DNA of 64,000 nucleotides from Bacteroidaceae bacterium (GTDB lineage Bacteria > Bacteroidota > Bacteroidia > Bacteroidales > Bacteroidaceae). The translations under genes and the position numbers were made by a program. The notes below the pieces were generated by a model, which ran no database searches, was not told the origin of the DNA, and worked only from the letters and a program-made list of their open reading frames with translations. Positions 31,020-47,000 of this stretch are shown here, piece after piece. Every line of letters begins with the position of its first letter. Within the stretch, counting starts at the first letter, position 1. The stretch lies in contig JAFUYT010000004.1 of NCBI GenBank assembly GCA_017470425.1, positions 1 through 64,000 on the forward strand. The letters are read 5' to 3'.

Positions 31020-32621
31020 ATGATACGCAAGCGAATTGTTCTTATCTGGTGGCTGATGGCCTTCGTCATGCCTGTTAAGGCAATGACGGACAGCTTGCTG
31101 ATGGCAGAGGTGGCCCGGACGGGGGTGTTGCTCAAGCAGATGCGCTATGACTCGACACTGGTGCAGGTGCGCCGTCTGCTGCCCGCGGCGCAGGAGAATG
31201 GAAATGTGCTGGCTGAGGCCGCGTTGCATGGCATTGCAGGCTTTGCACTCTCACGCTCGAACCGCCTGCAGGCAGGTCAGCAGGAGTATATGCGCAGTGC
31301 GTCCATTGCCGAGCAGCATCATCTATTAGAGAAGGCTGTCTGTGATGAGACAGGCACAATCCTGGCTCTCTTCTCCACGATGTACGGTGAGATGTCGTTG
31401 CGCTATCAGAACCAGGGTAATCAGGTGGAGGCGCTGCACTATGCCCGCACGGCACTGCGGTGGGTGTCATACGTGAATCAGGCTGAGTTGCGCGTGGGCG
31501 TCATGTCGTGCATCATGCCTGCACTGGCTGCAGGCAGAGAGTGGCTGCCGGCCTACGAACTGATGAAGCAGACGTTCGCAGATGCCCTGGATCTGAAACA
31601 GTATGACCTCGCCGTGGTCATGGCGGCCTATCTCATGAGGTGCGAGGACGAGTGCTTCGGTCGCGGCCCTGACGACTGTCCGTGGATGCTGCAGGCTGAC
31701 GGCATCGTGCCACTGGTGACTACGCGTGGTGCAGCAGAGGAATATGAGAAGATCCGGCAGGCGCTCGTCAGCAAATATGATGACAGGGTGGATGCCAGTG
31801 GTAAAGATAGTGTGTCAGATGGTGTGGATGTCAAGGGAGCTGAACTCGGCGGGGAAACCGCCGAGCACACTGATGTAGGCGAGCAGCATGGTTTTTCTTA
31901 CCTCTATCTGCTGCTGATGCTGGCGGGCATTGCTGTCCTGCTGTCGGGACTTTACTATGTATGGCACCGGCGCAACAGACGGAAGCGGCAGAAGGAGATT
32001 GAACATCAGATGGCTGAGAAATATGCTGAGGGACAGGAGTATGAGCGTAATCGTCTGGCTCGTGAGTTGCACGATGGCGTGAGCAACCAGTTGTTGGCCG
32101 TGGAGATGAAACTCAGCACAGAAGGGCTGACACCCGATACCATGCAACTGCTTGACGAGAGCCGTGAGCAGGTGCGTCGCGTGTCTCACGAACTGGTACA
32201 GCCCGAGCTCAACCGTGTCACGCTTGCAGAAGTCCTTGCAGGCTATGTGGCTCAATTGGATGGTGTGCGGCAGTGTAGTATGAGCTTTTCGGCTTCGCCC
32301 GCTGACACCGACTGGTCCTTCATTCCTCCTACTACGGCTCTTGACATCTACCGTATTGTCCAAGAACTTATCACCAACATTCTAAAACACTCAGGGGCCA
32401 CCATGACCTCCGTGGGACTGCATCATGATGGTGCGCGTACCATAATGGTTCTCATTAGCGACAATGGTGAGGATAAGGCCGATGATGTTGCTGCTTCGAC
32501 TGGCATCGGTCTTCGTAATATGAAACAGAGGGCAGAGGCACTTGGCGGGTCGTTGGAAACGATGCGTCATCAATATGGCAGGGTGGCCAAACTGGTTGTC
32601 AGCGTGCCTGAACAGCAGTAA
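31020..32621 (+). CDS. Sensor histidine kinase, NarX/LytS-like (HisKA_3)
   Basis: 533 residues. Signal-like N-terminal helix, a ~270-residue sensor region with helical tetratricopeptide-like pairs (LAEAALHGIAGFALSRSNRL, then YEKIRQAL), and a membrane helix around residues 293-313 (YLYLLLMLAGIAVLLSGLYY). A short coiled coil, HisKA_3 with phospho-acceptor His351 in RLARELHDGVSNQLL, and HATPase_c (ELITNILKHSG, DNGEDKADD, GIGLRNMKQRAEALGG) follow. Just before the membrane helix lies a codon-phased 21-bp hairpin (31845-31865). Pairs with the LuxR-type regulator at 33025, although ~400 bases with a structured RNA lie between them. Confidence 0.9.
   Translation: MIRKRIVLIWWLMAFVMPVKAMTDSLLMAEVARTGVLLKQMRYDSTLVQVRRLLPAAQENGNVLAEAALHGIAGFALSRSNRLQAGQQEYMRSASIAEQHHLLEKAVCDETGTILALFSTMYGEMSLRYQNQGNQVEALHYARTALRWVSYVNQAELRVGVMSCIMPALAAGREWLPAYELMKQTFADALDLKQYDLAVVMAAYLMRCEDECFGRGPDDCPWMLQADGIVPLVTTRGAAEEYEKIRQALVSKYDDRVDASGKDSVSDGVDVKGAELGGETAEHTDVGEQHGFSYLYLLLMLAGIAVLLSGLYYVWHRRNRRKRQKEIEHQMAEKYAEGQEYERNRLARELHDGVSNQLLAVEMKLSTEGLTPDTMQLLDESREQVRRVSHELVQPELNRVTLAEVLAGYVAQLDGVRQCSMSFSASPADTDWSFIPPTTALDIYRIVQELITNILKHSGATMTSVGLHHDGARTIMVLISDNGEDKADDVAASTGIGLRNMKQRAEALGGSLETMRHQYGRVAKLVVSVPEQQ
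31845..31865 (+). repeat. 21-bp in-frame hairpin #1 (histidine kinase gene)
   Basis: CTCGGCGG-GGAAA-CCGCCGAG; codons 276-282 read L-G-G-E-T-A-E. The purine-rich loop is on the coding strand. Confidence 0.85.
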
Positions 32622-32755
32622 AATTATCTGATTAAAGGCATACCGAGAGCAAAATCATGGATTTCCGCCAGTCCAGATTCTTGATTTTCCATTATATTTG
32701 CAGCCGATAATTAAAAAAAGGCTCACAAAAGGACGTGATAATGCACAGATTTATG

Positions 32756-32763
32756 TATCTTTG
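32756..32763 (+). promoter_or_regulatory. -7 box of the structured RNA / regulator leader
   Basis: TATCTTTG. A second possible box, TATATTTG, lies at 32693-32700. Stretch 32622-32755 otherwise shows no gene. Confidence 0.6.
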
Positions 32764-32768
32764 CAACG

Positions 32769-43918: not shown

Positions 43919-43970
43919 TATCAACAAGATTACATGATAGAGTCTCTAAGAACTCCGTTCTTGTAATGTG

Positions 43971-43998
43971 CCCCTCCCCGCCCTCGGGCGGGGAGGGG
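43971..43998. repeat. Intergenic 13-bp-arm palindrome after the GH2 gene
   Basis: CCCCTCCCCGCCC-TC-GGGCGGGGAGGGG, 9 bases after the GH2 stop. It may terminate GH2 transcription or be another mobile palindrome. Confidence 0.75.
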
Positions 43999-44007
43999 TT
44001 GGGGTCT

Positions 44008-47000
44008 TTACTTTGCAGCCTTGACGATATACGTGAAGGTGTGGTTCTTGTACTGGGGCACGAACTGCTGTTGCGGCCAGGCACCCCAGCTGTTGACGCA
44101 GCCGATGCCCATCTGGAAGGCACGGAGCTGCAGGACGGTGTAGTCGCGGGCGACGAGGTCACCGCTGTGGCTCTGGTGGGCATCCTTGCGAGGGCCGTCG
44201 TCGAGGTCTTCTATCTCATAGGGGAGGGCGGAGACTTCCATGGGGCCGCAGGCCTCGAAGTAGATATCGGGATGATCAGCCGCTTCCATGCGCCACCAGA
44301 GGATGTCGGTGTGGTTGCCGCTCTCCTGCGGACGTACGTAGCCGTTCCAGTACTGCTGGCTGACGGGGCCACCATAGATGCCCTTGAAGGCGTTGTCCTT
44401 GCGGTCGCAGTAGTTCTCCACGGGGCCACGGCCGATGTAGCGGACGCTGCTGTAATCCTTGTTCAGGCGCCAGGTCATGCCCATGGCGTACATCTGCCAG
44501 TCGGCGTGGTCAGGCACGTCGAGGGCTTCGGTGACGATGAGCTCGCCCTTCGGTGTGAGGATATAGGTCATGTGTAGCTTGGCTTCCAGATCCTTACATT
44601 CGTAGGAGACGCGGACCTGCTTGCTCTGGTTGTCGAGCTGGGTACATTCCATGGCGGTCTTGCTCCAGTGCGGGTTGCGCCATTTGGCGAAGGTGCGCTG
44701 CATACCTGCGCCGTAGTCGTTGTCGGTCGGGGCGCGCCAGAAGCTGGGCTCCACGCTCTTGCGGTCTTCGAGGACGGGCTTGCCGTTGATGTCGAAGTAG
44801 TCGATGTTGCCGGTCCACTTGTTCCAGGTGACGCTGGTGCCGGCGGCAGAGAGGGTGAGCCAGGCTTTGGCGTCGTCCTCCTGGACGGCAGGGGTGCTGG
44901 CGGACGCACCGCCAGCCACAGAGCCTTTAGCGGCTTTGGCAGATTTCTTGGCGGTGGCATCAACGGCGGGTGTAGCGGCAGCGAGGATGTCCTCAACCTT
45001 CTGATAGGGATAGTCCTTCAGCTCGAACTGGGCTTTGGCAATCACTTCGCCTTTCTTGAGGAGCCCGCGGTCGGCCTTGAGGCGGAACTGCACATTGACG
45101 GCAGCCCACTGGCTCTCGCTGGTGATCTTCTTGAGGGCATCGAGCAGCTGGGCCGGGATCTGGAAGCGCTGACGCTGCTGGGGCGCAAGCTTCACGGGGA
45201 TGGGATGGTCGTTGGGGGTCTCCTTCAGGGTGGTGCCGTCATAGGTGAGGAGGGTGGCAACAGCCTCCACATCGTCGGTCGTGCGGAAGAAGTTCTCGTT
45301 GTAGAGCTCCACCTCGCCGTCGAGCAGGGTCTTGCCTTCGGGCAAGGTAGCCCAGATGTCCTGGTAGTAGTACTGCACCTCGTAGGCATGGGGATGGAGG
45401 CTGCGGTCGGCGGCGATGACGCCGTTGCAGTTGAAGTTGTGGTCTGAAGCCGGATAGCGGCCGAAGTCGCCGCCGTAGGCCATGATCTCCTTGCCCGTCA
45501 CACGGCTGGTGCTACGCATTCCCTGATCGACGAAGTCCCAGATGAAGCCGCCCTGGTACTTCGGGTACTTGCGGATGAGGCGCCAGTACTCGGCGAAGCC
45601 GCCCATGCTGTTGCCCATCGCGTGGGCATATTCACACTGGATGAGGGGACGGGGATTGTCGTTCTGGCTGTAGCGCTCGCAGTTGCGGTAGTCGTAGTAC
45701 ATCGGGCAGAAGATGTCGGTCTTGCCGTTCTGTCCGGCCTGCTCATACTGCACGGGGCGGCTCTGGTCGATGACCTTCACGGCCTCATAGGCATCCTCGA
45801 AGTTCTTGCCGTAGCCAGCTTCGTTGCCGAGGCTCCAGAAGATCACGCTGGGGTGGTTCTTCTGCACCTGCACGTTGTGCTGGTTGCGCTCCACGTGTGC
45901 CTTATGGTAGATCGGGTTCTTGGCGAGGGTGCGGTCGCCGTAGCCCATGCCGTGGCTCTCGATGTTGGTCTCGGCGACGACGTAGAGGCCATACTGGTCG
46001 CAGAGGGCATACCAGCGTGGGTCATCGCTGTAGTGGCAGGTGCGCACGGCGTTCATGTTCAGTTGCTTCATGATCTTGATGTCCTGGATCATGCGTTCTA
46101 CGCTGACGATGTAGCCGCCGTCGGGGTCGAGCTCGTGGCGGTCGGCGCCCTTGATGAGGATGGGCTGGCCGTTGACGAGCACCTGGCCGCCTTCAATCTT
46201 GATATTGCGGAAGCCGACGTGCTGGCGGATGGTCTCGAGGGCGTTTCCTTTCTTGTCCTTCAGGGTGAGGGTGAGGGTGTAGAGGTTGGGGATCTCAGCG
46301 CTCCAGGCTTGGGCATTGGGGACGGTGAAGGTGACGGCGGACACACCGCCGTCAACGGGGCGGCCGGTGGAATCAACGGGGCGGCCGGCGGGGTCGGCGA
46401 GGGTGGCCTCGATGGTGTAGCCTTTGGCGGTGGGGGCGGTGATATCGACGGTGAGCTGGCCGTCCTTATAGTTGTTCACGAGGTCCTGATGGATGAAGAT
46501 ATCCTGGATGTGTGCCTTCGGGCGGGCATAGAGATAGACCTCGCGGGCGATGCCGGTGAAGCGCCAGAAGTCCTGGTCTTCGAGGTAGCTGCCGTCGCAC
46601 CAGCGCATGACGCGCATGGCGATGAGGTTCTCCTTGCCAGGGTTGAGGTACTTGGTGAGGTTGAACTCAGCCTCCATCTTGGAGTCCTCGCTGTAGCCTA
46701 CCTCCTTGCCGTTGACCCACACTTGCAGGTTGGAGGTGGCGGAGCCGACGTGGAGGTAGATGTCCTGTCCCTTCCAGGCGGCGGGGATGGTGACCATCTT
46801 ACGGTAGGAGCCCGTGTAGTTGTTGCGCTCCTCTACGTAGGGCGGGTTCGAGTCGAACTGCGTGTCCCATGAGTAGCCTACGTTCTTGTAGATCTTGTCG
46901 CCGAAGCCTTCAATCTCGAAGAGGCCGGGGACGGGGAAATCAATCCACTGGCTGTCGTCGAACTTCGGAGAGAAGAAGTCGGCGGGTGCCTCGTTGTGGT

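Follow-up and report, generated by a model that had tools for sequence, protein, structure and literature searches.

A multi-copy family of tagged palindromic hairpins in genes and intergenic regions of a Bacteroidaceae bacterium and its relatives

The best-known examples of translated palindromic repeats come from Rickettsia. In the available part of their description, the Rickettsia palindromic elements (RPEs) are in-frame palindromic repeats of ~150 bp that lie in unrelated genes and encode a conserved peptide (PMC10969869). The repetitive extragenic palindromic (REP) elements, as far as the accessible text of the source goes, are palindromes of 20-40 bp with a GTAG or CGTC tag at one foot; they occur in many copies near gene 3' ends, and copies inside open reading frames (ORFs) have already been reported in several species (PMC3733652). 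The accessible part of a study on Nematomorpha mitochondria describes perfect inverted repeats of up to 284 bp inside coding genes (PMC6649704). Here we describe a family of hairpins in a 64,000-nucleotide stretch of contig JAFUYT010000004.1 from a Bacteroidaceae bacterium (positions 1 to 64,000, hereafter the window). With moderate confidence, we interpret them as a genus-restricted, REP/RPE-like palindromic element of ~47 bp with a GGGYNNWGTG-type tag, a paired stem of 8-9 bp that varies in sequence, and a T-rich loop of 3-5 nt. The host is a gut bacterium, probably of the rumen, from an uncultured Bacteroidaceae-like lineage; for the S9 peptidase gene in the window, the closest relatives with names are metagenome-assembled genomes labelled Bacteroidaceae, Prevotellaceae or Bacteroidales, several of them of rumen origin. 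Below, G-numbers denote genomes (G000 is the genome of the window) and L-numbers denote loci or stretches.

The hairpins form a multi-copy, patchily distributed family with shared tags, copies both in genes and between them, some clear insertions and a bias for the sense strand. A preliminary description of the window had listed seven perfect hairpins with 8-bp arms and 5-nt loops. All seven are present with 8/8 pairs and a 5-nt loop, and translation confirmed that each begins at a codon boundary and encodes the heptapeptide it had been assigned (Table 1). Two features had to be revised. The hairpin at 38546 is perfect as an 8-bp arm/5-nt loop structure, yet it is truly a 9-bp stem with a 3-nt loop because the outer loop bases pair. 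The hairpin itself measures 21 bp as described, but the conserved unit is larger, ~47 bp. The window contains 11 arm-8/loop-5 hairpins, where an order-3 Markov model predicts 1.2. Among the four further ones, that at 42941 is an eighth family member; those at 24234, 31516 and 36555 lack the tag. The perfect untagged hairpin at 36555-36575 lies inside a gene for a DHH/DHHA1 protein and resembles native coding sequence. An Rfam scan of the window gave no match above the gathering score.

In the ~47-bp unit, a GGGYNNWGTG-like 5' tag precedes an 8-bp stem, which varies in sequence and closes on a T-rich loop. In logos of 96 copies and of the 15 G010 copies, conserved sequence spans roughly -18 to +28 relative to the hairpin in G010 and is weaker in the other copies. 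Positions -3 to -1 of the 96-copy logo are G (95%), T (86%) and G (76%), preceded mostly by T; the 15 G010 copies carry AGTG. Reading the flanks of hairpins in 20 stretches picked by hits and 20 picked regardless of hits showed that the 5' tags AGTGTG, CTGTG, AGTGCG and CCCCGTT recur before stems of different sequence and that the loops are mostly TTTNN or TTCNN. In the consensus fold of 14 G010 copies, additional GGG/CCC and GA/TC pairs surround a GTG bulge. Two G000 contigs also share an identical tag-like hairpin (GATAGCG followed by CTAAACGT TTTAG ACGTTTAG), which lies between genes at L020:2649-2691 and L157:17700-17742.

Searches that did not use the flanks also link the tags with pairing. 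There were 110 perfect T[TC]-loop hairpins after GTG, GTT or GCG and 4 after nine control trinucleotides, with tags that were picked after inspection of the data and many stretches that were selected for their hits. In a sequence-only test on G000 stretches (tag, 8N, T[TC]), at least 7 of 8 pairs were found at 8/29 sites for AGTGTG, 8/157 for CCGTT, 1/193 for CTGTG and 1/29 for AGTGCG, compared to 0/633 for five control tags. AGTGTG gave 1/26 in unselected stretches of other genus members, and one control tag gave 1/115 in other genera. Pair counting on an alignment (A1) was discarded as circular, since its rows had been selected as perfect hairpins. The first and last residues of the heptapeptide are coupled via base pairing (L..E, D..V, S..G, P..G and V..D), suggesting that the heptapeptide would be a by-product.

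Table 1. Family hairpins of the window
Position	Strand	Host gene (strand)	Orientation in gene	Heptapeptide	Remarks
31845..31865	-	histidine kinase, 30999-32621 (+)	antisense	LGGETAE	tag AGTGTG, loop TTTCC
35113..35133	-	GH88/DUF4861, 33694-36396 (-)	sense	GGGSSAA	weak tag CCATG
38546..38566	-	S9 peptidase, 37706-40024 (-)	sense	LGDSIAE	between-strand turn
38879..38899	-	S9 peptidase, 37706-40024 (-)	sense	RSGFPAA	linker
39113..39133	-	S9 peptidase, 37706-40024 (-)	sense	LGNFVAE	net insertion
42941..42961	-	DUF6057, 41867-43927 (-)		GEGFPFA	tag AGTGTG, loop TTTCC; additional to first list
44896..44916	-	GH2, 44008-47406 (-)	sense	AGGASAS	net insertion
46333..46353	-	GH2, 44008-47406 (-)	sense	DGGVSAV	

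Hairpins of this kind exceed chance in the host genome. In 226 called G000 genes, from stretches taken regardless of hits plus the window, 82 hairpins with loops of 3 to 5 nt were found against 17.5 after synonymous shuffling; part of the excess is due to other loop-3 palindrome families, some within doubtful ORFs. The 175 genes of other genera had 6 against 8.6. The excess was clearest, among 16 other genus genomes, in G003 (9 vs 1.9), G015 (8 vs 1.6), G018 (8 vs 2.5) and G055 (4 vs 1.2), and was absent from 8 of the 17 sampled genus genomes (G016, G067, G011, G072, G001, G012, G066 and G044). That nearly half of the sample lacks an excess is what chance palindromes from GC-rich codon usage would predict, and phase 0 is also the commonest phase among arm-8/loop-5 hairpins in synonymous shuffles. 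The G000 counts and the association with tags nevertheless leave this explanation practically no room, and for G000 the comparison with expectation excludes chance. The codon phase had been offered as evidence together with size and loop type. Phase 0 is real, but it proves little when taken alone because about half of the chance arm-8/loop-5 hairpins (53%, 4.25/7.95) fall in phase 0, and it was rejected as sole evidence.

A model of the element, R1, was trained on 29 copies of G000, to which the window contributes eight. At E<=1e-3, R1 matched at least 20 of the 61 genus genomes, G000 included, with at least 55 matches in G018, 44 in G000, 44 in G055, 19 in G010, 15 in G067 and 14 in G015, and 1-9 in the others. 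These counts are lower bounds and may be low because the filters were strict and at most 105 candidates were scored per genome. The other 41 genomes had no match among the candidates scored, and 69 loci (343 kb) of other genera gave no hit even at E<=1. The copy number is thus high and the distribution among species patchy. Together with the same tags on different stems and two net insertions, this upholds the view of the preliminary description that the hairpins are a mobile or templated mini-element and not chance repeats.

The placement of the copies was tallied with home-made gene calls, which leave some intergenic gaps very short or very long, and on many stretches that were chosen because they hold a copy. 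By the flank-free definition, the 110 hairpins divide into 81 in genes and 29 intergenic; G010 is an exception, with 14/15 copies intergenic. The in-gene copies comprise 68 in sense phase 0, 6 in sense phase 2, 1 in sense phase 1, 2 in antisense phase 0 and 4 in other antisense phases, so that 75/81 are on the sense strand. A tally of R1 hits, which covered 46/52 hits of G000 and 53/63 of other genomes after exclusion of weaker hits, found sense phase 0 in 36/40 in-gene copies of G000 and 37/42 of six other genomes; it counts the near-identical G015/G041 locus pair twice, and the flanks of R1 were learned mostly from sense phase-0 copies. Among 31 intergenic copies (15/17 G010 hits included), an upstream gene was called for 30, and 26 copies share the orientation of that gene. 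Of the copies that lie between tandem genes, 18/20 are co-oriented (two-sided binomial, 4e-4), a bias for which codon constraint cannot account.

Translated in sense phase 0, the unit gives (S)V-x-GG-(F/L/S)-(P/S/A)-A-x. Translation in either of the remaining sense phases usually turns the tag into Cys, Trp or stop and, in one of the two, also produces an Arg-rich stretch; this may be sufficient to explain the phase. The fixed phase thus probably means that proteins tolerate the peptide encoded in it. The antisense phase-0 product, xGG(K/R/E)TAxHT, is found in the histidine kinase copy at 31845 and in several viral-contig ORFs and looks harmless. Another cause is therefore needed for the sense bias, which is seen between genes as well. 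The proposed selection for frame preservation accordingly survives in part: phase 0 looks like a tolerated product, but tolerance leaves the sense bias unexplained. We consider it very unlikely that a protein linker motif (GSVxGGSSAx) was copied between genes with the hairpin as a side effect of codon choice. The near-constant sense frame and the Gly/Ser-rich product fit such a motif, but the residues at its two ends mostly co-vary as complementary codons, some copies lie between genes, and LGG(K/R/E)TAEH is what the antisense copies of the histidine kinase and of viral-contig ORFs encode.

Comparison with orthologues gave two clear net insertions among the eight window copies, two copies in variable linkers and three without net length change. 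The histidine kinase (Pfam HATPase_c/HisKA_3) has no close orthologue in the 61 genus genomes. At 39113, the window has 29 codons where seven close relatives have 18, and it exceeds the seven distant homologues shown by ~10, a net insertion of ~10-11 codons carrying LGNFVAE. In 20 genus orthologues of this site, the short form is present in 11 and the element in L065 and L137, L068 carries a seemingly degenerate version, and six (L069, L281, L282, L283, L286 and L296) have other inserts. The extra codons at 44896 are shared by L163 (G003) alone among 19 aligned orthologues; the L163 copy keeps the consensus loop and has one broken pair. The linker at 38879 is absent from the seven distant homologues shown, and the variable linker at 35113 is missing in L194-L200. 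In the structure that AF2 predicts for the S9 peptidase (mean pLDDT 73), the three copies fall in loops, two of them in low-confidence stretches. Other palindromic families occupy the same sites in relatives. Such repeats (GACTCTCCCCCCGCCCTCCCTATAAGGGAGGG; GCCCCTCTCTAACTCCCCCCGTGGGGGGAG) were noted at window positions 11247-11335, 34257, 41715, 41833, 43170-43240 and 43861 and in other G000 stretches, and the GACTCTCCCCCCGCCCTCCCTATAAGGGAGGG family is translated within the S9 peptidase of the relatives L061, L065 and L137 (SPRPPYKGGSR...SLPHREG).

A loop of the histidyl-tRNA synthetase (HisRS) carries the element in 5 of 30 aligned species (55 genomes with a HisRS match). The G000 and G018 copies pair perfectly although two of their stem pairs differ, both by compensated changes, and each bears the tag type of its own genome. 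This pattern is consistent with insertions recurring at the site or with copies converting one another. The same loop (L015:6369-7907 in G000; L384-L412) hosts several repeat types in the genus besides the tagged hairpin: a CTCCCTCCC palindrome in L386, simple repeats (LNSQL), and an insert upstream in G000 with a SETGLK duplication. A 28-residue gap in most HisRS matches was set aside, being mainly this separate upstream insertion.

If the hairpins are a REP/RPE-like element, copies would have spread via transposition or copying of a single-stranded form, presumably mediated by an enzyme that recognises the tag and the hairpin. In-gene copies would survive mainly where a protein loop accommodates them, and where the frame reads the peptide given above. 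Several results weigh against this reading. Against close orthologues there is no net length change at 38546 (also compared with Bacteroides), at 46333 (compared with most orthologues) or at 42941 (compared with the closest orthologues), although some distant genus members are shorter at 42941. The hairpins had been described as inserted in their genes; this holds for 39113 and 44896, but the three sites do not bear it out for every copy, and part of what the preliminary description had named as grounds for refutation applies to them. At the HisRS site the net gain is only ~4-5 residues, and 3/5 carriers have broken or G.U pairs (L401, one G.U; L385, one G.U and one mismatch; L397, two G.U and one mismatch). 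No target duplication and no base-level empty/filled pair was observed. No mobiliser emerged: a search of ten copy-bearing genomes (leaving out G031, G046, G053 and G058) detected a full-length PF01797 (REP tyrosine transposase) in G067 only. In G055, the most complete copy-rich genome (97% complete, 44 copies), the match is partial and weak (24-80 of 121), and G013 has a full match yet no copies. The match in G000 is also partial (E 0.001), and the lack of a full-length one is a weak negative because G000 is 72% complete. Lastly, the in-gene sense bias (75/81) is above expectation for passive insertion with a harmless antisense reading.

The sites without net length change raise the possibility of mutation in place, in which template switching would perfect imperfect palindromes in freely changing loops. 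It would account for the three window sites, and at the 42941 site G003 (L216) shows a perfect hairpin whose arms are similar and whose loop is different. We give it little credence, as it accounts neither for the shared 5' tags and genome-specific tag types nor for the near-identical intergenic G010 copies.

Viral contigs carry the family as well. IMG/VR contains 29 stretches with an exact match to a short form of the element, several on contigs >100 kb in DarB-like and tape-measure-like ORFs. Placed by the longest open frame, 30 of 33 viral hits comprise 9 in sense phase 0, 8 in antisense phase 0, 8 in other frames and 5 without an ORF above 150 aa. On L426 and L427 (IMG/VR contigs of 141 and 132 kb), copies lie in DarB-like antirestriction ORFs, on L426 in both orientations. 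Antisense copies that read (L/I)GG(K/R)TAEH lie in two viral ORFs of ~1,200 aa, three in L428:1018-4647 and two in L431:2721-6218; the L428 ORF, the one scanned, has no PHROG or Pfam match.

A further reading, of low probability, is that the element is copied or kept in a way linked to transcription. It would then lie on the sense strand in ORFs and downstream of genes, be translated in one frame, keep its stem by paired changes as in HisRS (G000 versus G018), and move in the absence of any recognised REP transposase, perhaps carried by phages. With respect to replication strand as a cause of the bias, copies occur on both strands along contig G055:C1. Alternatively, the hairpins could be functional in mRNA, as protein- or RNase-binding sites on transcripts (ORFs and 3' regions) that are kept for the fold of the sense RNA, the phase being a tolerated frame. 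The sense strand in 75/81 in-gene and 18/20 tandem-intergenic copies and the stem variation through paired changes agree with such a function. Non-Watson-Crick pairs at orthologous sites are G.U 13, A.C 3 and others 7 when the degenerate L068 and four unpaired 46333 rows are left out (G.U 18 vs A.C 10 with them); this G.U excess is suggestive but confounded by synonymous third-position C-to-T changes. Conserved structure at orthologous sites was negative on average (mean fold z -0.51 to +0.17 at seven sites) in a test of low power, because even the window copies reach no more than -0.4 to -2.4. The 41 genus genomes without an R1 match and the presence of the element on both strands of viral-contig ORFs also speak against an mRNA function, which we regard as unlikely.

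The family is of interest in several respects. In a Bacteroidaceae-like lineage, several translated palindrome families occur at shared permissive loops of proteins, among them a tRNA synthetase. It is a GC-rich, many-species system for comparing insertion, decay and protein tolerance, and its intergenic strand bias calls for a mechanism. Among the matches listed from the open-licence PMC literature, there was no report of this hairpin family or of translated Bacteroidales palindromes.

Compared to the known systems, the family is like REPs in being a short palindrome with a shared tag or consensus and many copies, and in its occurrence close to the 3' ends of genes. It is unlike them in its tag (GGGYNNWGTG, CCCCGTT or CTTGCNCTGTT instead of GTAG or CGTC) and in lying mostly in genes (29/110 intergenic), whereas REPs are mainly extragenic. 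Unlike GTAG-class REPs with a REP-associated tyrosine transposase (RAYT), it comes without a full-length transposase of the RAYT type in G055, the most complete of the copy-rich genomes. The perfect inverted repeats in coding genes of Nematomorpha are similar, but these are mitochondrial and up to 284 bp long, and the accessible part of the paper mentions no tagged family (PMC6649704). Like RPEs, the element is an in-frame palindromic repeat in unrelated genes that is absent from most orthologues (39113 and 44896). It differs in its length of ~47 bp with a seven-codon hairpin, compared to the ~150 bp and conserved peptide described for RPEs (PMC10969869), and in its Bacteroidales host. By appearance and behaviour, the family would thus be an element of the REP/RPE type that appears new in tag, size and host, and a member of neither group.

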